Positions 5,231-53,500 of a stretch of DNA of 64,000 nt are shown in pieces. The DNA is from Ehretia macrophylla (lineage: Eukaryota; Streptophyta; Magnoliopsida; Boraginales; Ehretiaceae). The notes beneath the pieces were generated by a model. It did no database searches, had not been told where the DNA came from, and worked only from the letters and a program-made list of their open reading frames with translations. The stretch lies in NCBI GenBank assembly GCA_037974665.1, contig CM075775.1, positions 39,954,152 to 40,018,151 on the forward strand, in the 5' to 3' direction. The translations under genes and the position numbers were made by a program. The stretch's first letter is position 1. The number at the start of each line of letters is the position of its first letter.

Positions 5231-5733
5231 AAGGTGCCGTGGGATTTGGTAATAGAATTGTGATGGATTAGGTAGTCATCCTTTTCGCGGCTCACGACGT
5301 ACGATCCGGGATTGAAAAACAGCGCAAAAGAAGAAAAGTGTCCCGAAACTAATGAAAACGTTTGATTTTGGAGAACCGATAGCAGGCGCCACCAAGCGGA
5401 CTTGTTGTCCCCATCGTAGAGCTCTCGAAGAGCTTTCCAACGGTATGCTGTGCGCCGCGTAACTCCTTACAGATCAAAAGTTATGGGCACCGGAGTAACG
5501 GAGACTTGGACCTAAACCCCACGCCCTCGGTTTGCGGGCCCAGCCTCTACGTGAAGCGAAGTTGTCTTGCCCAAGGTGCCAAGGGATTCGTTAATAGAAA
5601 TGTGATGGATTAGGTTGTCGTCCATTTTGCAGCTCACGACGTACGATCCGGGACGAAAAAACAGTACAAAAGAAGAAAAGTGTCCCGAATCTAATGAAAA
5701 CGTTTGATTTTTGGCTCTGAAAACAGGCGCAGC
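5231..5733 (+). repeat. Satellite block 1 (about 1.5 monomers of the 341-bp satellite)
   Basis: This short island of satellite lies between the 3' LTR of element A and solo LTR B. It starts AAGGTGCCG (offset 93 of the monomer) and ends GGCGCAGC (offset 253). It shares orientation and register with the other blocks. Confidence 0.95.
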
Positions 5734-8700
5734 TGTCACGCCCCAACCCGACCTATAAAGGTTAGACTAGGGTGTGATCTAAACATTTATGAAAGTTTAA
5801 CACTTAACGTTTTAGCCTAAAATCCACAAATTCTTCGAAAAACCGGCAGCATAACAGTTGTAATTAGGCTATTTAGTTTGACCTAGTTCTCTAAACGCCT
5901 CAGAATTTCCAATCTCAATTTCATTTCTAACTAAGATTACTATTTATCACCAATCGAAATGCCTACTAGTTATCTCGAAGTCTCGTTTAATTAATACCTA
6001 GCATGATACTATGTCTCGTTTGTTTGTTAATCCTTGTTACAAAAGTACCTGTTGATCTTAGCTTAATAATGAGTACCTACTTAAGATTGGATAGATTCAT
6101 TTTACTTAATCCTTACCTGATACTTCATAATCCTATGATAGATACTAGCCAATAACGATAGCAAAACGACCATTGTAGTGTCTATCTAGTTAGGATCAGT
6201 ACAAGCCAAAATTAGACCCCATATTACAACGGGGGTCATTTACAATACAATAGCAAGCATCATAAGAAAATGAAACAGTCTTCAAGTAACATATCGTTCA
6301 CAAAATGGCCATAGTCAAGCAAGGCACGTAGGGCAAGCAATCATTCCAAGGAATCATCAATAGGCACGTTGTCCTCGGGTACCTGTTCCTGGTCTTCTTC
6401 ACCTGAGATGATAAAAGAGGGTGAGTCCTTATGAACTCAGCGAGGGGGAACGAGAAATAAGTTTTGAAACTCTTTTTTCGGTTCAACTTGTGAAAACTCT
6501 TTTTGCAAGCATGACATGTATCACAAGTAAGTACATAATGTAATATAACAGTAAAAGAACACAGTTACCCATCTTTCCTCCCCGAGGTCCTCTAGGAACC
6601 AAGCGAGAGTACTTATACATATAGTGAAAAGGATACGGTGAGCTTTTGCTCTCAGTTCATTTCCAGTATCAGTTGTTGCGGTCGACTTCAAATCATCCCC
6701 TTATCACGCCAATGGGTGTACTCCGGATGTACCCCAAAATCCTACGACCCAACTCTCCGAGGAAGTCTAGCCCCCAAGCGAGAGAGGGAATTGGACAATG
6801 GTAGTCACGATTGCACCGGTAAGCCCGATGCCACCCGGTGTGCGTGAACGCTACCACGCCATAATGAAAGGTTGCAACCTTGTATGCAATGCACATTTAT
6901 GACATTTAATATATCACATTTGGAGGTCAACAAAGTAGGTTGCCTCCGAACAGTCATAAGATTGCACATTGACAAGTAAACAAGCGAGGCACAATATGAC
7001 AGGCAATTTCACTTGAAAAGCACATGGAGTTATATGAATATTAAACAGGAAGCCATGTAACGCATTTAAATCAAGTCATATAACTCATTTCGAAGTTCAC
7101 GTAATCAAATAATAAGATTATTTATCATGTACCGACATCTACGTGGGACCGAGTACAAGAAATGCCTACTTGTCAACATGTAATCATCGAAATCATGTTT
7201 AGGGCTATGAGGGAAACTACGGGCAGCCTACTAATCATATTATTAAACGCGATATCCATAGGATCAACACTTTGTGAGTTTACCTAATCACTAGGGTTTC
7301 AATTCGTGCTTACCCGTGCAATTAAGCCCCAAGTCATCTCGTAATTAAACTCAAGCCATGCATTGATTAATTCAAACACCCTCAAGTATTCAAAAAATTC
7401 CACACAACATCCAAATGCCACGATCCCAAGCATTTAATACAACAAGAGAAGCTACAATACTTTTTCTAAGCATATCACTATGTGAAACCCTCACTGCAAT
7501 TGGCTATTTTCTCACAATCATTAAGACATGCAAACAAACTCCAATTCCAGTAAGAAAAATGTCAAATTAAATCTTAAGGAGTGAAATAAATCCAGAAACA
7601 AACCTTACATCATTTGGAGTTCGGGTTCAAGAGTTATAGCCAAAATAGTGAGACTACGCAAAACTGTCCGGATTTGCACACATTTCAATACTTGTCATTT
7701 TGTAGGGCCTTAGGGTCAGATTTATCCTTAGTCCATTTCTGACAAAAATGTCCAGAACTGAAAAATCTAGCAGTACACCAAATTTCATGCATTTTGGATA
7801 TCATTTACTAAGTCAAAAATGGTTCGTTCTACAAGAACAGTGAATTTGCCAAAACCTGCTACATTTTCCCAGATTTTCCAGATTTGGACACATTTTGATA
7901 TTTTGCCATTTTGAGGACCTTAGAGTCAAAATTAACTTTGGCCTATTTATGCAAAAAATGCTCAAAACTGGCAAAACTAGTCACCTACCAATTTTGACGC
8001 ATTTTCAACCTCATTTACCTGGTCAAAATCACCCCGCACCAACAAGGCAGAAGGTTGTCTCATACGCGATTTCAACTATCATCACATTCTAGCCAAATAT
8101 CTTGCCATGCTTGTTTATAAAAGCTCATGAACACACATATATCACAAGTACAGAGGTAAAAATAGACATTCAAAGGCATGCATGTGGTTTTCAAAAGCTT
8201 TTCAAGAAGTTTTAGCCCTCACCTTAGCAAGACAACAAAGAAGATGCACAAACTCTTGAGGATGCACAAGATTGACTCTTTTCCTTGCTTAGCCGAGAGA
8301 CCACTTGATTTTCTCTAATTTCCTAGCTTAGTAACCAAGTTCTTAGTAGGTGCATGTGGTTAGAACAAGAAGAAAATGAAATGGAAGCTAACAACTCACC
8401 TAAGCCAAAATGAAGGTTCAAAGAGCTTGCATGTATGTTTCTTTGCTCCTAGCCTTGCTTGGTCGAGCTCCTAAGTAGCTTGGAGGCCTTGAAGAGCCTT
8501 AGGATGAAGAACTTAGCTATGGAGTCTACAATTTCAGCTAGGGCCGAGAGAGAGAGAAGAAATGAGAGAGAGTGAGAGAAAATGTGAGAAGAAAAGAAAG
8601 AATGAAAGAAAAATGAAAGGCTTTGATGAATAAGATGCTTGTGTCGGCCTTGAACTTGTAAATTTTAGATTTTTGTGTCTTCAAGGAGCATGTTTGAAGT

Positions 8701-9337
8701 GTCTAGCATGGGCAATTGGAGTATGTCGAGAATATAGAGCTTTGGGTAGAGTTTTGAGCCAATTTTTTATGCATTGTGTCATAACTTGTCTAAGCATAAA
8801 CTTTGAAATTGAAAAGCTTGATCACATGCTCCTACATGGTCGGCCAAGGCTTGAAAAAATGTTGAATCTTTCTGCAAAGTTTGATCACATGCTCCTACAT
8901 GGTCGGCCAAGGCTTGAAAAAATGTTGAATCTTTGTCATCTTTTGAGCATTATTTTAATTGTGTGTTTGGGATATGCAAAGAATAAAGAATGCTTAGCTT
9001 TGGTACAATTTCGTCTTCTAGTGAGTTGAATTAGCAATTTAATATTAGTCAGTGGAGTTTGTAGGATTAATTAATGATCTAGTACTTCGTGTAAGATGCT
9101 TTTTTGATTAACGTGAGGGCATGCTTTCCTAGGTTTAGGGAACACACTACGAGGTAAGGCACGAACTACCAGATGAATGCACATTTCTCAAGTGCACGCA
9201 ACCCTAAATGAATGCACGTAATTCAATCCAAGGCACACAAAACGAAACACAATTCTTAAACCTAGGTCAAGGCACGTAAATCTAGGTTAGGGCACATGAA
9301 ATCAGGTATCGCACGTAAATCGAGGTCGGGCCTCACA
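5734..9337 (-). mobile_element. Solo LTR B, minus orientation (about 3.60 kb)
   Basis: It reads TGTCACGCCCC... to ...GGCCTCACA on the + strand, the reverse complement of the LTR ends seen in A, C and E. There is no internal region, primer-binding site or polypurine tract on either side, and satellite DNA flanks both ends in register. The flanking five bases are GCAGC (5729-5733) and GCAGT (9338-9342), a target duplication with one mismatch. This is the product expected from recombination between the two LTRs of a full element. A 63-bp tandem duplication lies inside at 8818-8934. Confidence 0.92.
8818..8934. repeat. 63-bp tandem duplication inside solo LTR B
   Basis: A unit beginning TTGATCACATGCTCC occurs at 8818 and again at 8881, with about 54 bases identical in the two copies. 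Sister LTRs have a single copy of the homologous region. Because 63 is a multiple of 3, it also creates a repeated peptide in an open frame at 8673-9029, which I regard as incidental. Confidence 0.9.
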
Positions 9338-12300
9338 GCAGTGGAGTAAGCTTACTGCCCCATTCGTAGAGCTCTCGGAGAGCTTTCCAACAATATGTTT
9401 GGTGCTGCATAACTCCTTATAGATCAAAAGTTATGGGCACCAGAGCGACGGAGACTTGGTCCCAAGCCCCACGCCCTCGATTTGTGGGCCCAGCCTCTAC
9501 GTGAAGCGAAGTTGTCTTGCCCAAGGTGTCGGGGAATTTGGTAATAGAAATGTGATAGATTAGGTTATCGTCCTTTCCGTGGCTCACGACGTACGATCCG
9601 GGACAGAAAAATAGTGAAATGAAGAAGAATCCCAAAACTGATAAAAATGTTCAATTTTGGGCTCCAAAAATAGACGCAGCCAACAGGACAACTGCCCCTA
9701 TCGTAGAGCTCTCAGAGAGCTTTCCAACGGTATGCTGCACGCCGCGTGACTCCTTATAGATCAAAAGTTATGGGTACCGGAGCGACAGAAACCTGGTCTC
9801 AATCCTCACGCCCTCGGTTTGCGGGTCCAGCCTCTACGTGAAGCGAAGTTGTCTTGCCCAAGGTACCGTGGGATTCGGTAACACAAATGTGATGGATTCG
9901 ATTGTCGTCCTTTTCGCGGCTCACGACGTATGATCCGGGACAAAAAAATAGTGCAAAAGAAGAAAAATATCCCAAAATAGATGAAAATGTTCGATTTTGG
10001 GCTCCGAAAATTGGCACAATAGAGCTGGCTTGCTGCCCCTGTCTTAGAGCTCTCGGAGTGCTTTCCAACGGTATGCTGTGCACCGCGTAACTCCTTACGG
10101 ATCAAAAGTTATGGGCACCGGAGTGACGAAGACCTGGTCCCAAGCCCCACGCCCTCGGTTTATGGGCCCAGACTCTACATCAAGTGAAGTTTTCTTGCCT
10201 AAGGTGCTGTGGGATTCGGTAATAGAAATGCGATGGATTAGGTTGTCGTCCTTTTTGCGGCTCACGACGCACTATCCGGGACGAAAAAACAGCGCAAAAG
10301 AAGAAAAGTGTCCCAAAACTAATGAAAACGTTCGATTTTGGGCTCCAAAAACTGGCGCAACAGTGCAGGCTTGCTGCTCGTCATAGAGCTCTTAGAGAGC
10401 TTTCCAACGGTATGTTGTGCGCCGCGTAACTCCTTACGGATCAAAAGTTATGGGCACCGAAGCGACGGAGACCTGGTCCCATGCCGCACACCCTCGGTTT
10501 GCGGGCCTAGCCTTTACGTGAAGCGAAGTTGTCTTGCCCAAAGTGCCCTGGGATTCGGTAATAGAAATGTTATGGATTAGGTTATCGTCCTTTTCGCGGC
10601 TGACGACGTATGACCAGGGACGGAAAAACAGCGCAAAAGAAGAAAACTGTACCAAAATTGATGAAAACATTTGATTTTGGGCTCCAAAAATAGGTGCAGT
10701 CGAGTAGGCTAGTTGCCTACGTCGTAGAGCTCTCGGAGAGCTTTCCAATGCTATGATGTACGCCGCGTAACTCCTTACGGATTAAAAGTTATGGGCACCG
10801 GAGCGACGGAGACTTGGTCCCAAGCCTCACGCCCTCGGTTTGCGGGCCCAGCCTTTACGTGAAGCGAAGTTGTCTTGCCTAAAGTGCTGTGGAATTTGGT
10901 AATACAAATGTCAAGGATTCGGTTGTCATCCTTTACGCAGCTCACGACGTACGATCCGGGATGGAAAAACAGCGCAAAAAGAAGAAAAGTGTTCTAAAAT
11001 AGATGAAAACATTCGATTTTGGGCTCCGAAAAGATGTGTAGCATAGCAGGCTTGTAGCCCCTATCGTAGAGCTCTCTGAGAGCTTTCCAACAGTATGCTG
11101 TGTACCGCGTAACACCTTACGAATCAAAAGTTATGGGCACTAGAGCGATGGAAACCTGGTCCCAAGCCCCATGCCCTCGGTTTGTGGGCCCAGCCTTTAC
11201 ATGAAACGAAGTTGTCTTGCCCAAGGTGCCATGGGATTCAGTAATAGAAATGTGATGGATTCAGTAGTCATCCTTTTTGCGGCTCACGACGTATGATCTG
11301 GGACGAAAAAATAGCGCAAAAGAAGAAAAGTGTCCTAAAACATATGAAAACGTTCAATTTTGGACTCCGAAAATAGGCATAGTCGAGCAGGCTTTCTACC
11401 CCCGTCGTAGAGCTCTTGGAGAGCTTCCCAACAGTATGCTGTGCGCCTTGTAACTCCTTACACATCAAAAGTTATGGGCACCAGAGCGACGGAAACCTCG
11501 TCCCAAGCCCCACGCCCTCGGTTTGCGGGTCCAGCCTCTACATGAAGCGAACTTGTCTTGCCCAAGGTACCGTGGGATTCGGTAATAGAAATGTGATGGA
11601 TTAGATTGTCATCCTTTTCGCGGCTACCGACGTATGACCCAGGACGGAAAAACTGCGCAAAAGAAGAAAGTGCCCCAAAACTAGTGAAAATGATCGAATT
11701 TGGGCTCCGATAACATATGCAGTAGAATAGGCTAGCTGCCCCTGTCGTAGAGCTTTCCAACGGTATGCTGTGCGCCGCGTAACTCCTTACGGATCAAAAG
11801 TTATGGGCACCGGAGTGACGGAGACTTGGTCCCAAGTCCCACGCCCTCAGTTGGAGGACCCAGCCTCTACGTGAAGCGTAGTCGTCTTGCCCAAGGTGCC
11901 ATGGTATTCGGTAATAGAAATGTGATGGATTAGGTTGTCGTCCTTTTCGCGGCTGACGATGTACGATCCGAGACAAAAAAATAGCGCAAAAAAAGAAAAG
12001 TGTCCCAAAACTGATGAAAACATTAGATTTTGGGCTCTGAAAACAGGGTCAGCCTAACGCGCTTGCTAGCCCCGTCGTAGAGCTCTCGGAGAGCTTTCCA
12101 ACGGTATACTATGCGTCGCGTAACGCCTTACGGATCAAAAGTAATGGGCACCGGAGCAATAGAGACCTAGTCCCAAGCCCCACGCCCTCGGTTTGTGGGC
12201 CCAGCCTCTACGTGAAGAGAAGTTGTTTTTCCCAAGGTACCGTGGGATTCGGTAATAGAAATGTGATGGATTAGGTTGTCGTCCTTTTCGTGGCTCATGA

Positions 12301-15300
12301 CGTACTTTCCGGGACGAAAAAATTGCGCAAAAGAAGAAAAGTGTCCTGAAACAGATGAAAACATTCGACTTTGGACTCCGAAAATAGGCTCAACATTGCA
12401 AGCTTGATGCCCTCATCGTAGAGCTTATGGAGAGCTTTCCAACGGTATGCTGTGCGCCGCGTAACTCCTTACGGATCAGAAGTTATGGGCACGGGAGCGA
12501 CGGAGGCCTGGTCCTAAGCCCCACGCCCTCGGTTTACGGACCCAGCCTCTACGTGAAGCGAAGTTGTCTTGCCCAAGGTGCTGTGGGATTCGGTAATAGA
12601 AATGTGATGGATTAGTTTGTCGTCCTTTTCGCGGTTGACGACGTACGATCCGGGACGAAAATATAGTGCAAAAGAAGAAAAGTGTGCCGAAACTGATGAA
12701 AATATTCAATTTTGGTCTCCAAAAATAGGAGTAGCAGAGCAAGCTTGCTGCCCCTGTCGTAGAGCTCTTGGAGAGCTTTCCAACGGTATGTTGTGTGCCG
12801 CGTAACTCCTTACGGATCAAAAGTTATGGGCACTGGAGCGACTGAGACCTTGTCCCAAGCCCCATGCCTTGGGTTTGCGGGCCCAACTTCTACGTGAAGC
12901 GAGGTTGTCTTGCCCAAGGTGTCGTGGGATTCGGTAATAGAAATGTGAATGATTAGGTTGTCGTCCTTTTCGGTGCTCATAACGTACTATCCGGGATGGA
13001 AAAACTGCAGAAAAGAAGAAAAGTGTCCCGAAACTGATGAAAACGTTGGATTTTGGGATCCAAAAATAGGCGCAATCAAGCAGGCTTGCTGCCTTTGTAG
13101 TAGAGCTCTCGGAGAGCTTTCCTACAGTATATTGTGCGCCACGTAACTCCTTACGGATCAAAAGTTATGAGCACCGGAGCGGCGGAGACCAGGTCCCAAG
13201 CCCCACGCCCTCGGTTTGCAGGCCCAGCCTCTACGTGAAGCGAAGTTGTCTTGTCCAAGGTGCCATGGGATTCAGTAATAGAAAAGTGATGGATTCGGTT
13301 GTCGTCCTTTTCGCGACTCACGACGTACGATCTGGGACGGAAAAACAGCGCAAAAGAAGAAAAATGTCCTGAGACATATGAAAATGTTCGATTTTTGGGC
13401 TCCGAAAATAGGCGCAGCCGAGCAGGCTTTCCGTACCCGTCGTAGAGCTCTCGGAGAGCTTTCCAACGGTATGTTGTGCGTCTCGTAACTCCTTACATAT
13501 CAAAAGTTCTGGGCACCAGAACGATGGAGACCTTGTCCCAAGCCCTACGCCCTCGGTTTGTGGGTCCAGCCTCTATGTGAAGCGAACTTGTCTTGCCCAA
13601 GTTGCCATGGGATTCAGTAATAGAAGTGTGATGGATTAGGTTGTCGTCCTTTTCGTGGCTCATGACGTACGTTCCGGGACAGAAAAATCGCGCAAAAAAA
13701 GAAAAGTGTCCAAAAATAGATGAAAACATTCGATTTTGGACTCCGAAAATAGGCGCAGCAAAGCCAGCTTGCTACCCCCATCGTAGAGCTCACAGAGAGC
13801 TTTCCAACGGTATACTTTGCGCCACGTAACTCCTTACATATCAAAAGTTATGGGCACCGGAGTGACAGAGACCTGGTCCCAAGCCCCACGCCCTCGGTTT
13901 GCGGGCCCAGCCTTTATGTGAAGCGAAATTGTCTTGCCCAAGGTGCTGTGGGATTCAGTAATAGAAATGTGATGGATTAGGTTCTCATCCTTTTCGCGGC
14001 TCACGACGCACTATCTGGGACGGAAAAACAGCGCAAAAGAAGAAAAGTGTCCCAAAACTGGTGAAAACTTTTGATTTTGGGCTCTGAAAATAGGCGCAGC
14101 CGAGCAGGCTTGCTACCCCCGTCTTAGAGGTCTCGGAGAGCTTTCCAACGGTATGCTGTGCGCCGCGTAACTCCTTACAGATTAAAAGTTATAGGCACCG
14201 GAGCGTCGGAGACCTGGTCCCAAGCCCCACGCCATCGGTTTGCGGACCCAGCCTCTATGTGAAGCGAAATTGTCTTGCCCAAGGTGCCATGGAATTTGGT
14301 AATAGAAATGTGATGGATTAGTCTGTCGTCCTTTTCGCGGCTGACGACGTACGATCCGCGACGGAAAAATAGCGCAAAAGAAGAAAAGTGTCCCAAAACT
14401 GATGAAAACGTTCGATTTTAGGCTTCGAAAATAGGCGCAGCCGAGCAAGCTTGCTGCCCCCGTCGTAGAGCTCTCGGAGAGCTTTCCAACGGTATGATGT
14501 GTGCCGCGTAACTCCTTACGGATCAAAAGTTATGGGCACCGGAGCGACGGAGACCTGGTCCCAAGCCCCACGCCCTGGGCTTGCGGGCCCAGCCTCTACA
14601 AGAAACGAAGTTGTCTTGCCCAAGGTGCCGTGGGATTCGGTAATAGAAATATGAATGATTAGGTTGTCGTCATTTTTGTGGCTCATGACGTACGATCCGA
14701 GATAGAAAAACTGCGCAAAAGAAGAAAAGTGTCCCGAAACTGATGAAAATGTTGGATTTTGGGATCCGAAAATAGGCGCAATCGAGTAGGCTTGCTTCCC
14801 CTGTAGTAGAGCTCTTGGAGTGCTTTCGAACAGTATGTTATGCACTGCGTAACTGGTTACGGATCAAAAGTTATGGGCACCGGAACGACGGAGACCAAGT
14901 CCTAAGCCCCACGCCCTCGACTTTCGGGCTCAGCCTCTTCGTGAGGTGAAGTCTTCTTGCCAAAGCTGCTGTGGGATTTGGTAATAGAATTGTGATGGAT
15001 TAGGTTGTCGTCCTTTGAGCAGCTCATGACGAACGACACGAGACGGAAAAACAGCGCAAAAGAAGAAAAGTATCCCGAACCTGATGAAAACAATCGATTT
15101 TGGGCTCTGAAAATAGGTGCAGCCTAGCAAGCATGCTGCCCCCGTCGTAGAGCTCTTGGAGAGCTTTCCAACGGTTTGTTGTGCGCCTCGTAACTCCTTA
15201 CGAATCAAAAGTTATGGGCACCGGAGCGACGGAGGCTAGGTCCCAAGCCCCACGCCCTCGGTTTGCGAGCCCAGCCTCTACGTGAAGCGAAGTTGTCTTT

Positions 15301-15828
15301 CCCAAGGTGCCGTGGGATTCAGTAATAGAAATGTGATGGATTAGGTTGTCGTCCTTTTTGCGGCTCACGACGTACGATCCGGGACCAAAAAATAGCGCAA
15401 AATAAGAAAAGTGTCCCGAAACTGATGAAAACATTCGATTTTGGGCTCTAAAAATAGGAGCAGCAAAGCAAGCTTGCTGCACCTGTCGTGGAGCTCTCGG
15501 GGAGCTTTCCAACTGTATGCTGTGCGTCGCGTAACTCCTTACGGATCAAAAGTTATGGGCACCGAAGTGACGGAGACCTGGTCCTAAGCCCCACGCCCTC
15601 GGTTTGCGGGCCAGCCTCTACATGAAGCGAAGTTTTCTTGCCCAGGGTGCCGTGGGATTCAGTAATAGAAATGTGATAGATTCGGTTGTCGTCCTTTTCG
15701 CGGCTCACGACGTACGATCCGGGACGGAAAAAGAGCACAAAAGAAGAAAAGTGTCCTGAAATAGATGAAAATGTTCGATTTTGGGTACCGAAAATAGGCG
15801 CAACCGAGCAAGCTTTCTGCCCCCGTCG

Positions 15829-16014
15829 TAGAGCTCTCGGAGAGCTTTCCAACGGTATGCTGTGCGCTTCATAACTCCTTACATATCAAAAGTTATGGGC
15901 ACCAGAACGACGGAGACCTCGACCCAAGCCCCACGCCCTCGGTTTGCGGGCCCAGCCTCTACGTGAAGCGAAGTTGTCTTGGCCAAGGTACCATGGGCTT
16001 TGGTAATACAAATG
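15829..16014 (+). repeat. Identical satellite patch, copy 1 (partner at 16511-16696)
   Basis: About 186 bases, including the rare variants GCGCTTCATAAC and CTTGGCCAAGGTACCATGGGC, are identical to 16511-16696, exactly 682 bp (two monomers) downstream. Sequence on both sides of the patch is diverged as usual between monomers. Confidence 0.9.
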
Positions 16015-16510
16015 TGGTGGATTAGGTTGTCGTTCTTTTCGTGGCTCCTGACGTACCACCCGAGAAGAAAAAACTGCGCAAAAGAAGAAAAGTGTTCGGA
16101 AACTGATGAAAACGTTCGATTTTGGGCTTCGATAATAGGTGCAGTTGTGCAGGCTAGCTGTCCCCATCGTAGAGCTCTCAAAGTACTTTCCAACTGTATG
16201 TTGTGAACTGCGTAAATCCTTACGGATCAAAAGTTATGGGCAAGGGAGCGATAGAGACCTAGTCCCAAGCCCCACGCCCTCGGTTTGCGGGCCCAGCCGC
16301 TACTTGAGGCGATGTTCTCTTGTCCTAGGTGTCATGGGATTCGGTAATAGAAATATGATAGATTATGTTGTCGTCCTTTTCGCGGCTCACGACATACGAT
16401 CCGGGATGGAAAAATCGTGCAAAAGAAGAAAAATGTCCAGAAACTAATGAAAACATTCGATTTTGGGCTCTAAAAATAGGCGCGGCCATGAAGGCCAGCT
16501 GCCCCCATCA

Positions 16511-39701: not shown

Positions 39702-42700
39702 TGTCACGCCCCAACCCGACCTATAAAGGTTAGACTAGGGTGTGATCTAAACATTCAAGTCATATCACGTACTTAACCGTTCATAAAAGTTTTAACACTT
39801 AACATTTTAACCTAAACTCCACAAATTCTCTGGAATTCCGGCAGCATAATGACTGTAATTGGGCTTTTTAGTTTGACCTAATTCTCTAAACGCCTCAAAA
39901 TTTCCAATCTCAAATTCATTTCCAACTAAGATTACTATCAATTGAAACGCCTACTAGTTGTCTCGAAGTCTCGTTTGATTAACAGCCTAGCATGATAACT
40001 ATGTCTCGTTTGTTTGTTAATCCTTGTTACAAAAGTACCCGTTGATCTTAGCTTAACAATGAGTACCTGCTTAAGATTGGATAGATTCATTTTACTTAAT
40101 TCTTACCTGATACTTCATAATCCTATGATAGATACTAGTCAATAGCGAAAGCAAAAACGACCATAGTAGTGACTATATAATTATGATCAGTACAAGCCAA
40201 AATTAGACCCCAAATTACAACAGGGGTCGTTTACAATACAATAACAAGAAACATAAGAATGAAATAGTCTTCAAACAACATATCGTTCACAAAATGGCCA
40301 TAGTCAAGTAAGGCACGTAGGGCAAGCAATCATTCCAAGGAATCATCATTAGGCACGTTGTCCTCGAGTACCTGTTCCTGGCCTTCTGCACCTGAGATAA
40401 TAAAAGAGGGTGAGTCCTTATGAACTCAGCGAGGGGGAACGAGAAATAAGTTTTGAAACACATTTTTCTGTTCAACTTATGAAAACCCTTTGCAAGCATG
40501 ACATGTATCACAAGTAAATACATAATGTAATATAACAGTAAAAGAACTCAATTACCCGTCTTTCCTCCCCGAGGTCCTCTAGGAACCAAGCGAGAGTACT
40601 TATACACATAGTGAAAAGGATATGGTGAGCCTTTGCTCTCAATTCATTTCTAGTATCAGTTGTTGCGGCCGACTTCAAATCATCCCCTTATCACGCCAAA
40701 TGGGTGTACTCCGGATGTACCCCGAAATCCTACGACCCAACTCTCCGAGGAAGTCTAGCCCCCAAGCGAGAGAGGGAATTGGACAATGGTAGTCACGGTT
40801 GCACCGGCAAACCTGATGCCGTCCGGTGTGCGTGAACGCTACCATGCCAGAATGAAAGGTTGCAACCTTGTAGGAAATGCACATTTATGATATTTAATAT
40901 ATCACATTAGGAGGACAATAAAGTAGGTTGCCTCCGAGCAGTCATAAGATTGCACATTGACAAGTAAACATGCGGGGCACGATATGACAGGTAATTTCAC
41001 TTATAAGCACATGGAGTTATATGAATATTAAACGGGCAGCCATGTAACGCATGTAAATCAAGTCATATAACTCATTTCGAAGTTCAGGTAATCAAATAAT
41101 AAGATTATTCAACATGCAACGATATCTACGTGGGACCGGGTGCAAGAAAGGCCTACTTGTCAACATGTAATCATCGAAATCACATTTAGGGCTACAAGGG
41201 CAACTACGGGCAGCCTACTAATCACATAATTAAACACGATATTCATAGGATCAACACTTAGCGAGTTTACCTAGTCATTAGGGTTTCATTTCATGCTCAC
41301 CCGTGCGATTAAGCCCTAAGTCATCTCGTAATTAAGCTCAAGCCATGCATTGATTAATTCAAACACCCTCAAGCATTCAAAACAGTCTACACAACATCCA
41401 AATGCCACAATCCCAAGCATTTAATACAACAAGAGAAGCTACAATAATTTTTCTAAGCATATCACTAGATGAAAACCTCACTGCAATGGTCTGTATTCTC
41501 ACAATCATTGAGACAAGCAAACAATCTCCAATTCTAGTGAACAAAATTTCAAATTAAATCTTAAGGAGTAAACTAAATTTAGAAACAAACCTCGCATCAT
41601 TTGGAGTTCGGGTTCAAGAGTTATAGCCAAAACCGTGAGACTACGCAAAACTGTCCAGATTTGCACACATTTCAATACTTGTCATTTTTGAGGACCTTAG
41701 GGTCAGATTTAGCCTTAGTCTATTTCTGACAAAAATGTCCAGAACTGACAAATATAGCAGCACACTAAATTGGTTTACTAAGTCAAAACTGGTTCGTTCT
41801 ACAAGGACAGTGAATCTGCCAAAACCTGCTTCATTTTTCCAGATTTTCCAGATTTGGACACATTTTGATATTTTTCCATTTTGAGAACCTTAGAGTCAAA
41901 ATTAGATTTGGCCTATTTCTATGAAAAATTCTCACAACTGGCAAAACTAGTCAGCTACCAATTTTCAAGCATTGTCAGCATCATTTACCTGGTCAAAATC
42001 ACTTCATTCCAACAGAACAGAAAGCTGTCAAATACGCGATTTCACCTATCTTCACATTCTAGCCAAATATCTTGCCATGCATGCTTACAAAAGCTCATGT
42101 ATACACATATATCACAAGTACAGAGGTAAAAATAGACATTCAAAGTCATGCATGTGGTTTTTAAAAGCATTTCAAGAAGTTTTAGCCCTCACCTTAGCAA
42201 GACAACAAGAAGATGCACAAACTCTTGATGAAGCACAATGTCGACCCTTTTCCTTCCTTAGCCAAGAGACAACTTGAGATTTCTCTAATTCCTAGCTTAG
42301 TAACCATGATCTTAGTATGTTCAAGTGGCTAGAACAAAAGAAAATGAAATGGAAGCAAACAAACTTACCTAAGCCGAAATGAATGTGCTATGAGCTTGCA
42401 TGTGTGATTTTTCCATTCTAGCTTGCTTGGTCGAGCTTCCTAGTTTCTTGCATGTCTTGATGAACCATTGAGTGATGAACTTAAGCTATGGATAGTAGGA
42501 TTTCAGCCAAGGGCCGAGAGAGAGAGAAGAAATGTGAGAGTGAGAGAAAATGAGAGAAAGAGAAAATGTGAGAAAGAAAATGAAAGGCTTAGCATTTTGG
42601 TCGGCTATATGCTTCGACAATCTGATTTTTGTGTTGTCTTTTGAATGTTATTTGAATTGTTGGTGGACAAGGGTGATGTGGCCGAGATGGGTGGCTTAGT

Positions 42701-43270
42701 AGTTAGCAAAATGTGGCTTTGGTGCAAGCAAAAGGTATGACAATGTGAAGACTTTGTCTTAAGCATGCTTGGTTAAAATAATTTTTGTTCATACTTTGCT
42801 CAAAGCCCTTGGTTTGGCCTGCCCTATGAGCATCAAGATCTGAATTTTTTTGTTTGTTCAAGGCTTATTTTATTGTGTGTTTGGGAAGTGCAAAAGAATA
42901 AAGAATAAAGAATAAGAATGTCTAGCTTTTTGTGAGATTTCGTCTTTTAGTGAGTTGACTTAGCATTTTAATATTAGTTAGTGGAGTTTGTAGGATTAAT
43001 TAATGATCTAGTGCTTCGTGTAAGATGCTTTCTTGATTAGCGTGCGGGTACGCTTTCCTAGGTTTAGGACACGCACTACGAGGTAGGGCACGAACTACGA
43101 GACGAATGCGCATTTCTCAAGTAAATGCACACAACCCTAAATGTATGCACGTAATTCAATGCAAGACACACAAAACAAAACACGTCTCTTAAACCTAGGT
43201 CAAGGCACGCAAATCTAGATTAGGGCACATGAAACGAGGTATCGCACGCAAATTGAGGTTGGGCTTCATA
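39702..43270 (-). repeat. 5' LTR of element D (about 3.57 kb)
   Basis: It runs from TGTCACGCCCC to GGGCTTCATA on the + strand. The last bases are mutated from CTCACA. It keeps both copies of the 19-bp ACTACGAG repeat (about 43074-43101) that the 3' LTR has reduced to one. Confidence 0.94.
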
Positions 43271-45661
43271 TCTGCAATGCAGGCTTGTAGCCCCCGACGT
43301 AGAGCTCTCGAAAAACTTTCCAACGGTATGTTGTGCGCCGCATAACTCCTTATGAATCAAAAGTTATGGGCACCGGAGCGATAGAGACCTGGTCCCAACC
43401 CCCCGCGCCCTCGATTTGCGGGCCCAACCTCTACGTGAAGTGAAGTTGTCTTGCCCAAGGTGTCGTTGGATTCGGTAATAGATATATGATGGATTAAGTT
43501 GTCATCCTTTTCGTGGCTCACGATGTACGATCTGGGACGAAAAAACAGCGCAAAAGAATAAAAGTCTCCCAAAATTGATGAAAACGTTCGATTTTGGGTT
43601 CCGAAAATAGGCGCAGCTAAGCAGACTTGCTGCCCCCGTCGTAGAGTTCTTGGAGAAATTTCCAACGGTATTTTGTGCGCTGCGTAACTCCATATGGATC
43701 AAAAGTCATGGGCACCGAACCGACGGAGACCTGGTCCCGAGCCCCACGCCATCGGTTTGCGGGCCCAGCCAATACGTTAACCAAAGTTGTCTTGCCCAAG
43801 GTGCCATGGGATTTGGTAATAGAAATGTGATGGATTAGGTTGTTGTCCTTTTTGTGGCTCACGACGTGCGATCCAGGACAGAAAAAAAGCGCAAAAGAAG
43901 AAAAGTATAACGAAACTAATGAAAACGTTCGATTTTGGGCTCCAAAAATAGGCGCAGCTGAGCAGACTAGCTCCCCCTGTTATAGAGCTCTCGGAGAGCT
44001 TTCCAACGATATGCTATGCGCCGCGTAACTCCTTACGGGTCAAAAGTTATGGGCACCGGAGCGACGGTGACATGGTCTTAAGCCCCACACCCTCGGTTTG
44101 TGGGCCCAGCCTCTACGTGAAGCGAAGTTGTCTTGCCCAAGGTACCGTGGGATTCGGTAATAGAAATGTGATGGATTTGGTTGTCGTCCTTTTCGCGGCT
44201 CACGACGTACGATCCGGGATGAAAAAACAGCGCAAAAGAAGAAAAGTATCCCGAAACTTATAAAAACATTCAATTTTGGGCTTTGAAAACAGGCGTAGTT
44301 GAGCAGGCTTGCTGCCCCCATCGTAGAGCTCTTGGAGAGCTTTCCAACGGCATGTTATGTACCGCGTAACTCCTTACGGATCAAAAGTTATGAGCACCGG
44401 AGCAACGGAGACCAGGTCCCGAGCCCCACGCCCTCGGTTTGTGGGCCAGTCTCTACGTGAAGCGAAGTTGCCTTGCCCAAAGTGCCGTGGGATTCTGTAA
44501 TAGAAATCTGATAGATTAGATTGTCATCCTTTTTGCGGCTCACGACGTACGATCTGGGACTGAAAAACTGCGCAAAAGAAGAAAAGTATTCTGAAACTGA
44601 TGAAAACGTTCGATTTTGGGCTCCGAAAACAGGCGCAGCCTATCAGGCTTACTGCCCCCGCCGTAGAATTCTCGGAGAGCTTCATAATAGTATGTTGTGC
44701 GCCGCGTAATTCCTTATGGATCAAAAGTTATGGGCACCGGAGAGATGGAGACCTGGTCCCAACCTTTCGCCCTCGGTTTAAGGGCCCAACCTCTACGTGA
44801 AGCGAAGTTGTCTTGCCCAAGGTGTTGTGGGATTCGAAAATAGAAATGTGATGGATTAGGTTGTCGTTCTTTTCGTGGCTCACGACGTACGATCCGGGAC
44901 GGAAAAACAACGCAAAAGAAGAAAAGTGTCCCGAAATGGATGATAACGTTCGATTTTGGACTCCAAAACCAGGCGCAACCGAGCAGACTTTCTGCCCCAG
45001 TCGTAGAGCTCTCATAGAACTCTCCAACGGTATGCTATGCATCGCGTAACTCCTTACAGATCAAAAGTTATGGGCACCAGAGCGATGGAGACCTGGTCCA
45101 AAGCTCCACGCCCTTGGTTTGTAGGCCCAGCCTCTACGTGAAGCGAAGTTGTCTTGCCCAAGGTGCTGTGGGATTCGGTAATAGAAATGTGATGGATTAG
45201 GTTGTCGTCCTTTTCGCAGCTCACGACGTAGGATGCGGGACGGAAAAACAGCGCAAAAGAAGAAAAGTGTCCTAAAATAGATGAAAACGTTTGATTTTGG
45301 GCTCCAAAAACAGGCGCAGCCTAGCAGACTTGCTGCGCCCGTCGTAGATCTCTCGGAGAGCTTTCCAACGGTATGTTGTGCACCGCGAAACTCCTTACGG
45401 GTTAAAAGTTATGGGCACTGGAGCGACGGAGACCAGGTCCCAAGCCCCACGCCCTCGGTTTGCGGGCCGGCCTCTACGGGAAGCGAAGTTGTCTTGCCCA
45501 AGGTGTCGTGGGATTCAGTAATAAAAATCTGATGGATTAGGTTGTCGTCCTTTTCGCGGCTCACAATGTACGATCTAGGACTGAAAAACTGCGCAAAAGA
45601 AGAAAAGGGTTCCGAAACTGATGAAAATGTTCGATTTTGGGCTCAGAAAATAGGCACAACC

Positions 45662-48600
45662 AAGCAGGTTTGCTGCCCCCACCATAGAGTTCTCAGAGAG
45701 CTTCGCAATAGTATGCTGTGCACCGCGTAACTCCTTACGGATCAAAAGTTATGGGCACCGGAGCGATGAAGACCTGGTCCCAACCCCCATGCCCTCGGTT
45801 TGAGGGCCCAACCTCTACATGAAGCGAAGTTCTCTTGCCCAAGGTGTCGTGAGATTCGGTAATAGAAATGTGATGGATTAGGTTGTAGTCTTTTTTGCGG
45901 CTCGTGACGTACTATCCGGGACAGAAAAACAGCGCAAAAGAAGAAAAGTGTCCCAAAATGGATGAAATCGTTCGATTTTGGGCTCCAAAAACAGGCACAG
46001 TCGAGCAGACTTGATGCCCTCGTCGTAGAGCTCTCAGAGAGCTTTCCAACGGTATGCTGTGTATCACGTAACTCTTTACGGATCAGAAGTTATAGGCACC
46101 GGAGCGACGGAGGCCTGGTCCCATACCCCACGCCCTCGGTTTGCTAGCCCAGCCTCTACATGAAGCGAATTGTCTTTCCCAAGGTGCCATGCGATTTGGT
46201 AATAGAAATGTGATGGATTATGTTGACGTCATTTTCGCGTCTCACAACGTACGATCTGGGACGGAAAAACAGCATAAAAGAAGAAAAGTATCCTAAAATG
46301 GATGAAAACGTTCTATTTTGGGGTCCAAAAATAAGCGCAGCCGAGTTGACTTGCTGCCCCCGTCATAGAGCTCTCAGAGAGCTTTCCAACGGTATGTTGT
46401 GCGCCACGTAACTCCTTACGGATTATAAGTTATGGGCACCGGAGCGACGGAGACCAGGTCTCAAGCCCCACGCCCTTGGTTTGCGGGCCCAGCCTCTACG
46501 TGAAGTGAAGTTGTCTTGCCCAAGGTACCATGGGATTTGGTAATAGAAATGTGATGGATTAGGTTGTTATCATTTTCACGGCTCACGACGTACGATCCGA
46601 GACGAAAAACCAGCGCAAAAGAAGAAAAGTATCCCAAACTGATGAAAACGTTCAATTTTGGGCTCTGAAAATAGGCGCTGTCGCGCAGGCTTGCTGCCCC
46701 CGTCGTAGAGCTCTCGGAGAGCTTTCCAACAGTATGTTATGCGCGCGTAACTCCTTACGGATCAAAAGTAATGGGCACCGGAGAGACGGAGACCATGTCC
46801 TAAGCTCCATGCCCTCGGTTTGCGGGCCAACCTCCACGTGAAGCAAAGTTGTCTTGCCCAAGCTGCAGTGGGATTCGGTAATAAAAATGTGAAAGATTAG
46901 GTTGTCGTCCTTTTCGCAGCTCACGACGTACGATGCGAGACTGAAAAATAGCGCAAAAGAAGAAAAGTGACCCGAAATGGATGATAACGTTTGATTTTGG
47001 ACTCCAAAAACAGGTGCAACTGAGCATACTTTCTGCCCCCGTCGTAGAGCTCACCAACGGTATGCTGTGCATCGCATAACTCCTTACAGATCAAAAGTTA
47101 TGGGCACCGGAGCGACGGAGACCTAGTCCAAAACCCCATGCCCTCGGTTTGCGGGCCCAGCCACTATGTGAAGCGAAGTTGTCTTGCCCAAGGTACAGTG
47201 GGATTCGGTAACAGAAATGTGATGGATTAGGTTGTTGTCCTTTTCGCAGCTCACGACGTATGATGCGGGACTGAAAAACAGCGCAAAAGAAGAAAAGTGA
47301 CCCAAAATAGATGAAAACGTTCGATTTTGGGCTCCAAAAATAGGCGCAGCCGAGCAGACTTGCTACCCCCGTCGTAGAGCTCTCGGAGAGCTTCCCAACG
47401 GTATGTTGTGCACCGCGTAACTCCTTACAGGTCAAAACTTATGGGCACCGAAGCGACGGAGACCAGGTCCCAAGCCCCATGCCCTCGGTTTGCGGGTCGG
47501 CCTGTACGTGAAGCGAAGTTGTCTTGCCCAAGGTGTCATGGGAGTTAGTAATAAAAATCTAATGGATTAGGTTATCGTCCTTTTCGCGGCTCACGAAGTA
47601 CGATCTGGGACTGAAAAACTACGCAAAAGAAGAAAAGTGTTCTGAAACTGACGAAAACGTTCGATTTTGGGCTCAGATAATAGGCGCAGCCAAGCAGGTT
47701 TGCTGCCCCCACCATAGAGTTCTCAGAGAGCTTCGCAATAGTATGCTGTGCACCGCGTAACTCCTTACGGATCAAAAGTTATGGGCACCGGAGCGATGAA
47801 GACCTGGTCCCAACCCCCATGCCCTCGGTTTGAGGGCCCAACCTCTACATGAAGCGAAGTTCTCTTGCCCAAGGTGTCGTGGGATTCGGTAATAGAAATG
47901 TGATGGATTAGGTTGTCGTTCTTTTCGCGGCTCGCGACATACGATCCGGGACGAAAAAACAGCGCAAAAGAAGAAAAGTGTCCCAAAATGGATGAAATCG
48001 TTCGATTTTGGGCTCCAAAAACAGGCACAGTCGAGCAGACTTGATGCCCTCGTCGTAGAGCTCTCAGAGAGCTTTCCAACGGCATACTGTGCGTATCGTA
48101 ACTCTTTACGGATCAAAAGATATGAGCATCGGAGCGACGGAGACCTGGTCCCAAGCTCCATGCCCTCGGTTTGCGGGCCCAGCCTCTACATGAGGCGAAG
48201 TTGTGTTGCCTAAGGTGCCATGTTATTCTGTAATAGAAATGTGATGGATTAGGTTGTCATCCTTTTCGAGGCTCACGACGTACGATCCGGGACGAAAAAA
48301 CAGCGCAAAAGAAGAAAAGTGTCCCAAAACGGATGAAAACGTTCGATTTTGGACTCCAAAAATAGGCACAGTTAAGCAGACTTGCTGCCCTGTCATAGAG
48401 CTCTCAGAGAGCTTTCCAACGGTATGTTGTGTGCCGCGTAACTCCTTACGGATCAAAAGTTATGGGCACCGGAGCGACAGAGACCAGGTCCCAAGCCCTA
48501 CACCCTTGGTTTGCGGGCCCAGCCTTACGTGAAGTGAAGTTGTCTTGCCCATGGTGCCATGGGATTAGGTAAAATAAATGTGATGGATTAGGTTGTCGTC

Positions 48601-49760
48601 CTTTTCGCGGCTCACGACGTGTGATCCGGGACGGAAACACTGTGCAAAAGAAGAAATGTATCCCGAAACTGATGAAAATGTTCAATTTTGGGCTCTGAAA
48701 ATAGGCGCTATCGAGCAGGCTTGCTGCCCCCGTAGTAGAGCTCTCGAAAAGCTTTCTAATGGTATGTTGTGCGCGTGTAACTCCTTACGGATCAAAAGTT
48801 ATGGGCACCGGAGCGACGGAGACCATGTCCCAAGCCCCATGCCCTCGGTTTGCGGGCCAACCTCCACGTGAAGCGAAGTTTTCTTGCCCAAGATACCGTG
48901 GGATTCGATAATAGAAATGTGAATGATTAGATTGTCGTCCTTTTCGCAGCTCACGACGTACAATGCGGGACGGAAAAACAGTGCAAAAGAAGAAAAGTGT
49001 CCTAAAATAGATAAAAATGTTCAATTTTGGGCTCCAAAAACAGGCACAACCGAGCAGACTTGCTACCCCTGTCGTAGAGCTCTCGAAGAGCTTTCCAACG
49101 GTATGTTGTGCACTGCGTAACTCCATACGGGTTAAAAGTTATGGGCACTGGAGCGACGGAGACCAGGTCCCAAGCCCCCCGCCCTCGGTTTGCGGGCCGG
49201 CCTCTACGGGAAGCGAAGTTGTCTTGCCCAAGGTGTCGTGGGATTCAGTAATAAAAATATGATGGATTAGGTTGTCGTCCTTTTCGCGGCTCACGAAGTA
49301 CGATCTGGGACTGAAAAAACTTCGCAAAAGAAGAAAAGTATTCCAAAAGTGATGAAAACGTTCGATTTTGGGCTCCAAAAATAGGCGCAGCCTAGCAGGT
49401 TTGCTACCCCCGCCGTAGAGTTCTTGGAGAGCTTCGCAACAGTATGCTATGCGCCGCGTAACTCCTTACGGATCAAAAGTTATGGGCACCGGAGCGACGG
49501 AGACCTGGTCCCAACCCCCACACCCTCGGTTTGAGGGCCCAGCCTCTACGTGAAGCGAAGTTGTCTTGCCCAAGGTGTTGTGGGATTCAGTAATAGAACT
49601 GTGATGGATTAGGTTGTTGTCCTTTTCGCGGCTCGCGACGTACAATTTTGGACAAAAAAATAGTGCAAAAGAAGAAAAGTGTCCCAAAATGGATGAAAAC
49701 GTTCAATTTTGGGCTCCAAAAATAGGCACCGCCGAGCACACTTGATGTCCCCGTCGTAGA
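45662..49760 (+). repeat. Higher-order repeat region: 6-monomer then 5-monomer spacing
   Basis: CACCATAGAGTTCTCAGAG lies at about 45681 and again 2030 bp on. The roughly 420 bases from there (including GATGAAATCGTTCG and ACTTGATGCCCTCGTCG) are nearly identical in the two copies. The GACTTGATG variant recurs at 46013 and 48043 (+2030), and as CACTTGATG at 49742 (+1699). The GCGGGC/TCGGCCT variant recurs at about 45466, 47506 and 49196. The CCAACCTCCACGTG variant recurs at about 46828, 48858 and 50562. Confidence 0.85.
48681..48880 (+). repeat. Identical 200-bp satellite patch, copy 1 (partner at 50385-50584)
   Basis: The patch carries AGGCGCTATCGAGC, CTCTCGAAAAGCTTTC and GCGCGTGTAACTCC. It is identical base for base to 50385-50584, 1704 bp (five monomers) downstream. 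Flanking bases differ. Confidence 0.88.
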
Positions 49761-50384
49761 GCTCTCAGAGAGCTTTCCAATGGTATGTTGTGCATCGCAT
49801 AACTCCTTACGGATCAAAAGTTATGGGCACCGGAGCAACGGAGACCTGGTCCCAAGCCCCACGCCCTTGGTTTGCTGGCCCAGCCTCTACATGAAGCGAA
49901 GTTGTCTTGCCCAAGGTACCCTGGGATTTGGTAATAGAAATGTGATGGATTAGGTTGTCATCATTTTCGCGGCTCACGACGTACGATCCGAGACGAAAAA
50001 ACAGCGTAAAAGAAGAAAAGTGTCCTAAAACATATGAAAACGTTCAATTTTGGTCTCCAAAAATAGGCGCAACCGAGCAGACTTGCTGCCCCCATTGTAG
50101 AGCTCTCGGATAGCTTTCCAACGGTATGTTGTGCGCCGCATAATTGCTTACGGATCAAAACTTATGGGCTCCGGAGCGACGGAGACCTGGTCCCAAGCCC
50201 CACGCCCTACGTTTGCGGGCCCAGCCTCTATGTGGAAGGAAGTTGTTTTGCCCAAGGTACCGTGGGATTCGGTATTAGAAATATGATGGATTAGGTTTTT
50301 CGTCCTTTTCGCCGCTCACGACGTACGATCCTAGATGGAAAAACCGCGCAAAAGAAGAAAAGTATCCCGAAACTAATGAAAACG

Positions 50385-50584
50385 TTCAATTTTGGGCTCT
50401 GAAAATAGGCGCTATCGAGCAGGCTTGCTGCCCCCGTAGTAGAGCTCTCGAAAAGCTTTCTAATGGTATGTTGTGCGCGTGTAACTCCTTACGGATCAAA
50501 AGTTATGGGCACCGGAGCGACGGAGACCATGTCCCAAGCCCCATGCCCTCGGTTTGCGGGCCAACCTCCACGTGAAGCGAAGTT
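50385..50584 (+). repeat. Identical 200-bp satellite patch, copy 2 (partner at 48681-48880)
   Basis: This is the second copy of the 200-bp patch. It ends where copy 1 reads GTTTTCTTG and this copy reads GTTGTCTTG. Confidence 0.88.
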
Positions 50585-53500
50585 GTCTTGCCCAAGCTGC
50601 CGTGGGATTCGGTAATAGAAATCTGATGGATTAGGTTGTCGTCCTTTTCGCGACTCACGATGTACGATATGGGACTGCAAAACTACGCAAAAGAAGAAAA
50701 ATGTTCCGAAACTGATGAAAACGTCCAATTTTGGGCTCTGAAAAAAGGCGCAGCGTAGCTGGCTTGCTGCCCCCACCGTAGAGTTCTCGGAGAGCTTCCC
50801 AACAGGATATTGTGCGCCTCGTAACTCCTTACGAATCAAAAGGTATGAGCACTAGAGCGACGGAGACCTGGTCCCAACACCCACGCCCTCGGTTTATGGG
50901 CCTAGCCTCTACATGAAGCGAAATTGTATTGCCCAAGGTGCCGTGGGATTCGGTAATAGAAATGTGATGGATTAGGTTGTCGTCCTTTTCGCGGCTCATG
51001 ACATACGATCCGGGACGGAAAAACAGCGCAAAAGAAGAAAAGTGTCCCAAAACTATTGAAAATGTTCGATTTTGGGCTCCGAAAATAGGTGCAGCTGAGC
51101 AAGCTTGTTGCCCCCGACGTAGAGCTCTCGGAGAGCTTTCCAACGGTATGCTGTGGGCCGCGTAACTCTTTACGGGTAAAAAGTTATAGGCACTGAAATG
51201 ACAGAGACCAGGTCACAAGCCCCACGCCCTCTGTTTGCTGGCCCAGCCTCTACGTGAAGTGAAGTTGTCTTGCCCAAGGTACCATGTGATTCGGTAATAG
51301 AAATGTGATAGATTAGGCTGTAGTCCTTTTCGCGGCTCACGACGTACGATCCGAGACGGAAAAACAGCGCAAAAGAAGAAAAGTATCCTGAAACTTATGA
51401 AAATGTTCGATTTTGGGCTGTGAAAACAGGAACAGTCGAGAAGGCTTCCTGCCCCCGTCGTAGAGCTCTCGGAGAGCATTTCAACGGTATGTTGTGCGCC
51501 ACGTAACTCCTTACGGATCAAAAGTTATAGGCACCGGAGCGACGGATACATGGTCACAAGCCCCATGCCATCGGTTTGCGGGCCAGCCTCTACGTGAAGC
51601 GAAGATGTCTTGCCCAAGGTGCTGTGGGATTCGGTAATAGAAATCTGAAGGATTAGGTTGTCGATATGGTACTGAAAACTACGCAAAAGAAGAAAAGTGT
51701 TCCGAAACTGATGAAAACGTTCGATTTTGGGCTCTGAAAACAGGCGCAGCTGTGAGGCCCGACCTCGATTTGCGTGCGATATGTCGCTTCGTGTGCCCTA
51801 ACCTAGATTTGCGTGCTTTGACCTAGGTTTAAGAGTCGTGTTTCATTTTATGTGCCTTGTATTGAATTACGTGCATTTATTTAGGGTTGTGTGCATTTAC
51901 TTGGGAAACGTGTACTCATCTCGTAGTTCGTTCTTTACCTCGTAGTGCGTGCCCTAAACCTAGGAAAGCATGCTCGCACGTTAATCAAGAAAGCATCTTA
52001 CATGAAGCACTAGATCATTAATTAATTCTACAAACTCCAGTAACTAATATTAAAATGCCAAGTTAATGCACTAGAAGACGAAATTTCACCAAAAGCTAAA
52101 CATTCTTATTCCTTATTCTTTATTCTTTTGCATATTCCAAACACACAATAAAATAAGCTCAAAACAAGACAAAAAATTCAGAATTGAGCTTGCCTTGGCC
52201 GACCATGTGAGGAGCTTTTGTCGTGCTTTGCAATTTCAAAAATCAAGTTTAGACATTCTATGACACAATGCAAAAAAAAAAAATGGAAACCAAGCATTAT
52301 TTTATCCTCCACCATGCTCCACATTTTCGATCTATTCAATGCCCATGCTAGACAATTCAAAATATGCTTTTGAAGACACAAAAATCAGATTTGTAGAAGC
52401 CCAAAGCCGACCACATGCTCGAGCTTTTCATTTCTTTCTCTCATTCTCTCATCCTCTCATTTTCTCTCATCCTCTTAGCCTAGGCTGCTTCATCACCTCT
52501 CCATAGCTTAAGCTCATCATCCTAAGGTTCATCAAGACACTCAAGGTCCTAGGAAGCTCGACCAAGCAAGCTAGAAGCAAAGAAACATGCATGCAAGCTC
52601 ATAGAACACTCATTTCGGCTTAGGTATGTTTGATAGCTTCTATTTCATTTCCTTTTTGTTCTAACCACATGCACATACTAAGGACATGGTAACTTAGCTA
52701 GGAATTAAGGAAATCAAGCAATATCCCTCGGCCAAACAAGGAGAGAAGACCATTTGTGCATCTTCAAGAGTTTTGAGCATCATTTGTTGTCGATAGGCTA
52801 AGGTGAGGGTTAATCCTTTTTAAAAGCTTTCAAAAACCACATGCATGCCTTCATATGTCTATTTTACCTCTGTACTTGTGTAATATGTGTGTATATGAGC
52901 TTTTGTAACCATGCATGTCAAGATATTTAGCTAGAACTTGAAGATAGGAAAATCGCGAAAATGGCAGATTTCTGACTTGTTAGAACGAAGTGTATTTTGC
53001 CTGGTAAATGATGTTGAAAATGCATAAAAATTGGTAGGTGACTATTTTTGCCCGTTCTGAGCATTTTTCATAGAAATATGGTAAGGCCAATTTTGACTCT
53101 AAGGTCTCCAAAATGGCAAAACATCGAAAGGTGTCTAAATCTGAAAAATCTGCGAAATGAAGCAGGTTTTTGGCAGTTCACTGTCTTTGTAGAACGAACC
53201 GGTTTTGACTTAGAAAATGATATCTAAAATGCATGACATTTCGTAGGTTGCTATATTTTTCAGTTCTGGACATTTTTGTCAGAAATAGACTAAGGCTAAA
53301 TCTGACCCTAAGGCCCTAAAACATGACATGTATCGAAATGTGTATAAATCTGGACAGTTTTGCGTAGTCTCACGGTTTTGGCTATAACTCTTGAATCCGA
53401 ACTCCAAATGATGCGAGGTTTGTTTCTGGATTTAGTTCACTTAACAAGCTTTAATTTGAAATTTTTTTCACTGGAATTGGAGATTTTTTTCTTGTCTAAA

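Follow-up and report, generated by a model that had tools for sequence, protein, structure and literature searches.

RIRE7, a gypsy element of the CRM clade, is reported to insert preferentially into the TrsD tandem repeats of rice. The LINE L1-CS occupies recurrent preferred places in the monomer of the satellite CUS-TR24 of Cuscuta europaea, and this preference has been explained by a target motif that is conserved in the monomer (PMC8091179). TRRT, a gypsy element in the 18S rDNA of tomato, always lies at one position of the tandem repeat (PMC2679016). The target duplications of plant LTR elements are highly variable, so that most of these elements seem not to recognise particular sequences, with Phygy as the exception (PMC6317226). 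Generally, plant LTR elements show a weak palindromic motif around their 5-bp duplications and a tie to predicted nucleosome occupancy (PMC6911290). The Ehretia macrophylla family described here resembles L1-CS in its recurrent preferred places within a satellite monomer and TRRT in its association with one position of a tandem repeat. Offsets 249-253 of a 341-bp monomer quite likely form a recurrent integration hot spot of this one Ty3/gypsy family of LTR retrotransposons, which is Retrosat2-like and probably of the Tekay clade.

The window, a stretch of 64,000 bp that was analysed as a whole, is taken from contig CM075775.1 (labelled C12; C12:39954152-40018151) of a 1.58-Gb assembly with 20 contigs. 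It is made up of the 341-bp satellite, about 86 monomers' worth, which is broken by five insertions (A to E) of one LTR-retrotransposon family. Offset 1 of the monomer is set at TTATGGG, and all satellite blocks and target copies are read on the plus strand. The 3′ part of element A (1..5230, plus strand) harbors a broken pol followed by the 3′ LTR (approximately 1700-5230) and is bordered by its right duplication copy AAGGT (5231-5235, offsets 93-97). The satellite between A and B (5231..5733) runs from offset 93 through 253. Solo LTR B (5734..9337, minus strand) is flanked by GCAGC on its left (5729..5733, offsets 249-253) and GCAGT on its right (9338-9342). The array continues (9338..17274) up to solo LTR C (17275..20836, plus strand), which has the duplication TGGTC on both sides at offsets 27-31, and resumes behind it (20837..31552). 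Full-length element D (31553..43270, minus strand) carries LTRs at approximately 31553-35104 and 39702-43270 with broken frames between them, and lies between the target copies TATGC (31548..31552, offsets 249-253) and TCTGC (43271-43275). A further block of satellite (43276..51750) ends with GCAGC (51746..51750, offsets 249-253), the left target copy of element E (51751..62445, plus strand). E has a 5′ LTR at 51751-55305 and a truncated 3′ LTR at 60138-62445, and the array follows it to the end of the window (62446..64000). Between positions 24901 and 30568 the satellite monomers are of altered length (periods of 115, 268, and 383 bp), which corresponds to internal deletions and partial duplications.

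All five insertions belong to one family, whose complete LTRs measure approximately 3.53-3.60 kb by the boundaries set here. Two different-looking LTR starts, TGTGAGG and TGTCACG, are the opposite termini of one and the same LTR read in opposite orientations. The broken frames of element D match, in order, the Pfam domains RVP_2, RVT_1, RT_RNaseH, Integrase_H2C2, and SH3_Tf2-1, which is the gypsy order; the integrase catalytic core was absent among the Pfam matches of the D pieces searched. The LTR pair, the 5-bp duplication, and the order protease-RT-RNase H-integrase identify the family as Ty3/gypsy. The Pfam Chromo model matches the end of D's pol with an E-value of 6e-4 and 20.1 bits, below the curated cut-off of 25.1. 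The last ten LTR bases, GGGCGTGACA, are those given for rice Retrosat2/RIRE8 (PMC3485330), and Retrosat-2 has been placed under the Tekay clade of chromoviruses (PMC6317226). The LTR length, the terminus shared with Retrosat2, and the published clade table point to a Tekay/Del placement, and the family is thus probably a Retrosat2-like member of the Tekay clade. An assignment to the centromeric chromoviruses of the CRM type was rejected, as CRM LTRs are 299-1225 bp long with TGATG/CATCA ends (PMC3059260), unlike the approximately 3.53-3.60-kb LTRs with TGTGAGG...GTGACA ends found here. Elsewhere on contig C1, LTR 5′ ends on one strand follow each other at 8386-bp steps (39532319, 39540705, and 39549091), which suggests tandem elements sharing LTRs. 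At two further loci (L063 and L087) the LTR ends border on one and the same sequence. By eye, it looks like the interior of a same-family LTR, and the arrangement may reflect nesting at a single site or copying.

A sequence-only reading of the window had placed B, D, and E at the same 5 bp of the monomer, with B and D in minus and E in plus orientation, and had placed the remaining insertions elsewhere. Rereading of the target copies at all three sites gave the same offsets, 249-253, and the same orientations, and C (offsets 27-31, TGGTC on both sides) and A (offsets 93-97, AAGGT on the right) indeed lie apart. Four of five bases are identical between the two target copies of B, and likewise between those of D. 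D's right copy was read by eye; the automated placement of the right edge falls 5 bp further on (254-258), because the boundary is blurred by D's mutated LTR end. E shows the left copy only and offers no right-hand duplication for checking, because its 3′ LTR is cut off at 62445. The coincidence had been called very unlikely by chance, and a calculation by hand agrees, as at least three of five insertions would share one of 341 positions with a probability of about 10/341^2 = 9e-5, a figure that is post hoc.

For an independent sample of the genome, LTR ends were gathered without regard to their flank, and 208 ends outside the window were read together with the flank. They stem from exact matches to the first 27 LTR bases, read consecutively on C1 between 3.5 and 41.1 Mb, and from searches with the terminal 100 LTR bases of E, A, and D, each of which contributed its 40 best matches. 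Six of the 100 C1 places and one of the 40 E-like places were left unread as 3′ LTRs by their spacing, and eight loci (L001-L008) were excluded from every count, as their query spanned B's own junction. The 208 ends are divided into 90 inner LTR edges, 61 ends in satellite (at least 82% identity), and 57 below 82% identity. The 82% rule cannot separate the satellite from its copy in the 5S spacer, and the 61 include at least one end (L025) from a 5S array. When flanks at least 90% alike at the same place are collapsed, the 61 satellite junctions become 51. Nine of these 51 lie at the prespecified offset 249 (p = 4.4e-14), 12 at 248-250 (p = 2e-14), and 14 start at 246-252 (p = 1e-12); with collapse at 92.5% instead, nine of 52 lie at 249 (p = 5e-14). 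The integration hot spot that had been proposed from the window is thereby borne out. The share of junctions at 246-252 in the uncollapsed sampling sets is 6/26 for the exact C1 matches, 4/15 for the E-like, 4/14 for the A-like, and, as a point against the hot spot, 0/6 for the D-like ends. Offsets 78-82 and 321-325 are weaker recurrent sites, with six and four of the 51 junctions starting at 78 and 321, respectively; two each start at 27, 30, 59, and 309, and the remainder are single. Even when 246-252 is left out, the satellite junctions are uneven, with 25 coincident pairs compared to 2.0 expected.

The orientation of the 14 junctions at 246-252 relative to the satellite is plus in ten and minus in four. 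At 14 sampled hot-spot loci the opposite edge of the target was looked for as well, and two-sided duplications were found at five of them, four solo LTRs and one full element: CGCAG/TGCAG at 248, GAAGC/GCAGC, GCAGC/ACAGC, and ACAGC/ACAGC at 249, and CAGCC/CAGCT at 250. Four of these five further duplications agree at four of five bases only. Of the other nine loci, eight show, at the distance of one LTR, an inner LTR edge, as in full elements, and one shows nothing.

Junctions were also counted across the whole genome, in which LTR 5′ ends of the family number 13,467 at up to three mismatches. The pattern combined the LTR end with the nine satellite bases up to offset 253 and accepted either orientation. 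With up to three mismatches, the hot-spot junction occurs at 2121 places and its reversed control at none, while the junction at offsets 39-43 occurs at 335 places. The counts with at most one mismatch are preferable, since chance matches of other LTR ends are likely to inflate the three-mismatch figures; they amount to 654 at 249, 190 at 78, and 50 at 39 (30 with a single mismatch, 20 without). Two control offsets, out of a random draw of six from words of equal or higher conservation, gave seven (last flank base 218) and two (last flank base 166) at the same stringency. Conservation of the words fails to explain this ranking because in the window they occur, with at most one mismatch, 53 (249), 80 (78), 68 (39), 61 (218), and 73 (166) times. 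Among the first 100 exact places of the 249 junction, out of a larger number, all on C1-C8, 44 are in plus and 56 in minus orientation, and both orientations are also found genome-wide at offset 39. Insertions at the hot spot are present on at least contigs C1-C8, C10, and C12.

The base composition around insertions outside the satellite sheds light on the choice of this site. From the 57 nonsatellite ends, 12 were set aside because they resembled the satellite or were judged by eye to be leftover inner edges, and five collapsed as duplicates, which leaves 40 half-sites for training a motif. The resulting table shows an excess of G 3-4 bp outside the duplication (17/40 and 19/40 at positions 8 and 9 from the LTR) and A in the middle of the duplication (17/40). 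The training set is not wholly foreign to the satellite, because approximately 12 of the 40 half-sites lie within 5S arrays, whose spacer contains the monomer; these half-sites lie outside the part of the spacer that is similar to it. Scored over the monomer at widths 5-10 and 12, the motif ranks offset 249 between 1st and 18th and offset 78 between 6th and 31st of 341. The set of observed sites comes out top of the 341 circular shifts at widths 7, 8, 9, 10, and 12, and 35th and 17th at widths 5 and 6. Without 246-252 the rank of the observed set is 116th, 92nd, and 23rd at widths 5, 6, and 7, and first at widths 8-12. Offset 27 is missed by the motif (rank 222-305), and offset 321 is poorly predicted (rank 34-172). 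In 500 trials with shuffled half-sites, 249 scored as high in 3.8%, and the mean score of the observed set was matched in none. An earlier motif on 38 half-sites, inner LTR edges included, ranked 249 second to ninth. Structural features of the site were considered and rejected: a hairpin at 249, where the inverted repeat is 3 bp compared to a mean of 3.6, and a dyad, with 2/8 compared to a mean of 2.0. At offset 321 there is a 5-bp inverted repeat, as at 19% of offsets.

Site choice is thus at least partly a matter of sequence, and other factors are likely to contribute. Among the causes that had been offered for the hot spot (sequence, a positioned nucleosome, or a chromodomain target), local sequence has gained direct, if partial, support from the motif of the nonsatellite insertions. 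The findings support a mechanism in which the integration complex would weakly prefer certain bases around its 5-bp stagger, with the site at 249 as a good fit. Such a weak preference can yield a sharp peak because the same 341 bp are offered very many times. Upstream of this step, recognition of heterochromatin, perhaps via the weakly matched chromodomain, may bring the complex to the arrays, where local sequence or shape, possibly together with nucleosome wrapping, would then fix the base.

A less probable reading, although one to be taken seriously, gives the leading part to chromatin. A nucleosome (or CENH3 nucleosome) would be positioned on each monomer, integration would take place at the most exposed or bent site, and sequence would act solely through nucleosome position. 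This reading overlaps with the preferred one, and so do the confidences attached to the two. It agrees with the monomer length, as 341 bp is about two nucleosome repeats and the recurrent sites 78 and 249 lie 171 bp apart, and in an in silico study, insertions of LTR retrotransposons in plants were associated with predicted nucleosomes (PMC6911290). Counts of all insertions show significant phasing with periods of 10.5 bp and half a monomer (p < 0.001), but this stems largely from the recurrence of a few sites, and with distinct offsets the values are p = 0.06 and 0.14, respectively. Against nucleosome positioning speak the absence of 10.25-bp phasing (p = 0.47), the width of the cluster of just a few bases, and the base preference learned at other sites, which already places 249 high.

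The origin of the satellite bears on a further explanation. In all 12 of the 5S-array loci examined (for example, L022:1936-2277), the monomer is found, permuted at offset 130, inside a 5S rDNA repeat of approximately 679 bp. Monomer and 5S repeat copy are 83-95% alike, with a few cut-off pieces at 79-82%. It is known in principle that satellites can arise from rDNA spacers (PMC2679016), and the genome-wide satellite appears to be derived from the 5S spacer rather than the reverse. The same LTR family is also inserted in the 5S arrays themselves. Within the 5S unit, positions 588-592 and 616-620 recur at three loci each (L016, L020, L029, L089, L093, and L167), as read by hand from alignments with copies uncollapsed. 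Alternatively, the target could be tethered or exposed by a host protein bound to the DNA at the hot spot. Since the satellite corresponds to part of the 5S rDNA spacer, this protein might conceivably belong to 5S chromatin. The idea fits with the presence of the complete monomer, permuted, within the 5S repeat and with the insertion of one family into both kinds of array. The insertions in 5S units, however, are scattered over gene and spacer, and a fixed distance from the 5S genes, looked for from the 5S start, was rejected, which makes a tethering protein improbable. The preferred reading, an integration complex with a base preference of its own, can be extended tentatively. Contrary to what is stated for plant LTR elements, the integrase might read enough of its target to put about a quarter of the satellite insertions within 7 of 341 positions, and the family might be specialised on 5S rDNA arrays and the satellite born from their spacer; element and satellite might have spread together over the chromosomes; this extension is possible but doubtful.

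Very little speaks for the idea that unequal exchange, conversion, or segmental duplication has multiplied a single original insertion in each orientation. The process itself is real in this genome. At offsets 39-43 the flanks of the sampled copies are 88-100% alike and at 68-72 they are 93-95% alike, so that the copies sampled at these places are largely duplications, and their reading as independent events was rejected. In six loci at 39-43 on C2 and C10 (L102, L103, L107, L109, L116, and L125), the flanks are 91-100% alike, and it seems that blocks of satellite were copied together with the LTR insertion they carry. TRRT in the tomato 18S rDNA provides a precedent (PMC2679016). At the hot spot, in contrast, the flanks of different insertions at or next to 249 are 75-89% alike (from 55 of the 61 junctions), close to the background of random monomers (median 84%, 95th percentile 88%, 99th percentile 90%); three hot-spot pairs (0.883-0.890) are above its 95th percentile. 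The duplications begin at 248, 249, and 250, and these one-base shifts indicate separate insertion events. Both orientations are common, as seen in the exact places listed.

The LTRs of the insertions in the window lead to the same result. Kimura distances within elements are 0.049 for D's LTR pair and 0.053 for E's, compared to 0.139-0.143 for B-D, 0.170-0.211 for B-E, and 0.169-0.200 for D-E. The divergence among B, D, and E hence exceeds that within the LTR pairs of D or E by a factor of 2.9-4.1, which rules out their joint duplication. The suggestion that B and D could be copies of one insertion fails on the same distances: the divergence between B and D is nearly three times that of D's own LTR pair, which excludes a duplicate made after D inserted. 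An LTR end that is identical to E's over 100 bases lies 112 kb away at the same offset, but its flank is no closer to E's than other window monomers are; the 561-bp stretch is 89% identical to that of E, and its satellite part is 91% identical to another monomer run of the window. The hot spot has received many independent insertions of either orientation. Most of them lie at 249-253 and some are displaced by 1-3 bp, and they carry 5-bp duplications where both sides were found. An even spread of insertions followed by better survival or retention at 249, for which nothing specific speaks, is just as implausible as copying, since the place within a repeated monomer should have hardly any influence on recombinational loss, several different offsets recur, and solo LTRs and full elements are both found at the site.

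Recurrent, independent integration at the same few bases in both orientations shows that retrotransposons of this kind can choose their target almost to the base. The satellite serves as a natural integration assay, since it presents the same 341 bp very many times. With it, the target choice of a plant gypsy integrase becomes measurable to the base, and effects of sequence and chromatin could be separated. The general view that plant LTR elements are blind to particular target sequences also needs qualifying in the light of the hot spot. A search of the literature by titles and the starts of abstracts, with few subscription papers covered, yielded no case of an LTR element that independently reuses one site of a satellite monomer with base precision; the report on RIRE7 and TrsD may bear on this.

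Among the described systems, Retrosat2/RIRE8 is similar in the element itself, with LTRs over 3.2 kb, the identical GGGCGTGACA terminus, and the gypsy gene order, and the accessible part of its description contains no satellite hot spot (PMC3485330). L1-CS differs in being a LINE with two sites that resemble the mammalian L1 cleavage motif (PMC8091179), while the Ehretia family is an LTR element with 5-bp duplications and a GC-rich site. The published tandem-repeat case, TRRT, consists of duplicates of one insertion according to its authors (PMC2679016), whereas the hot-spot insertions in Ehretia are independent and present a clear case of reinsertion at one site. A weak base preference around the duplication is common to plant LTR elements and to the Ehretia family (PMC6911290). 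The effects averaged over plant families are slight (PMC6911290), however, whereas in Ehretia 14 of 51 satellite insertions lie at one position of the monomer.
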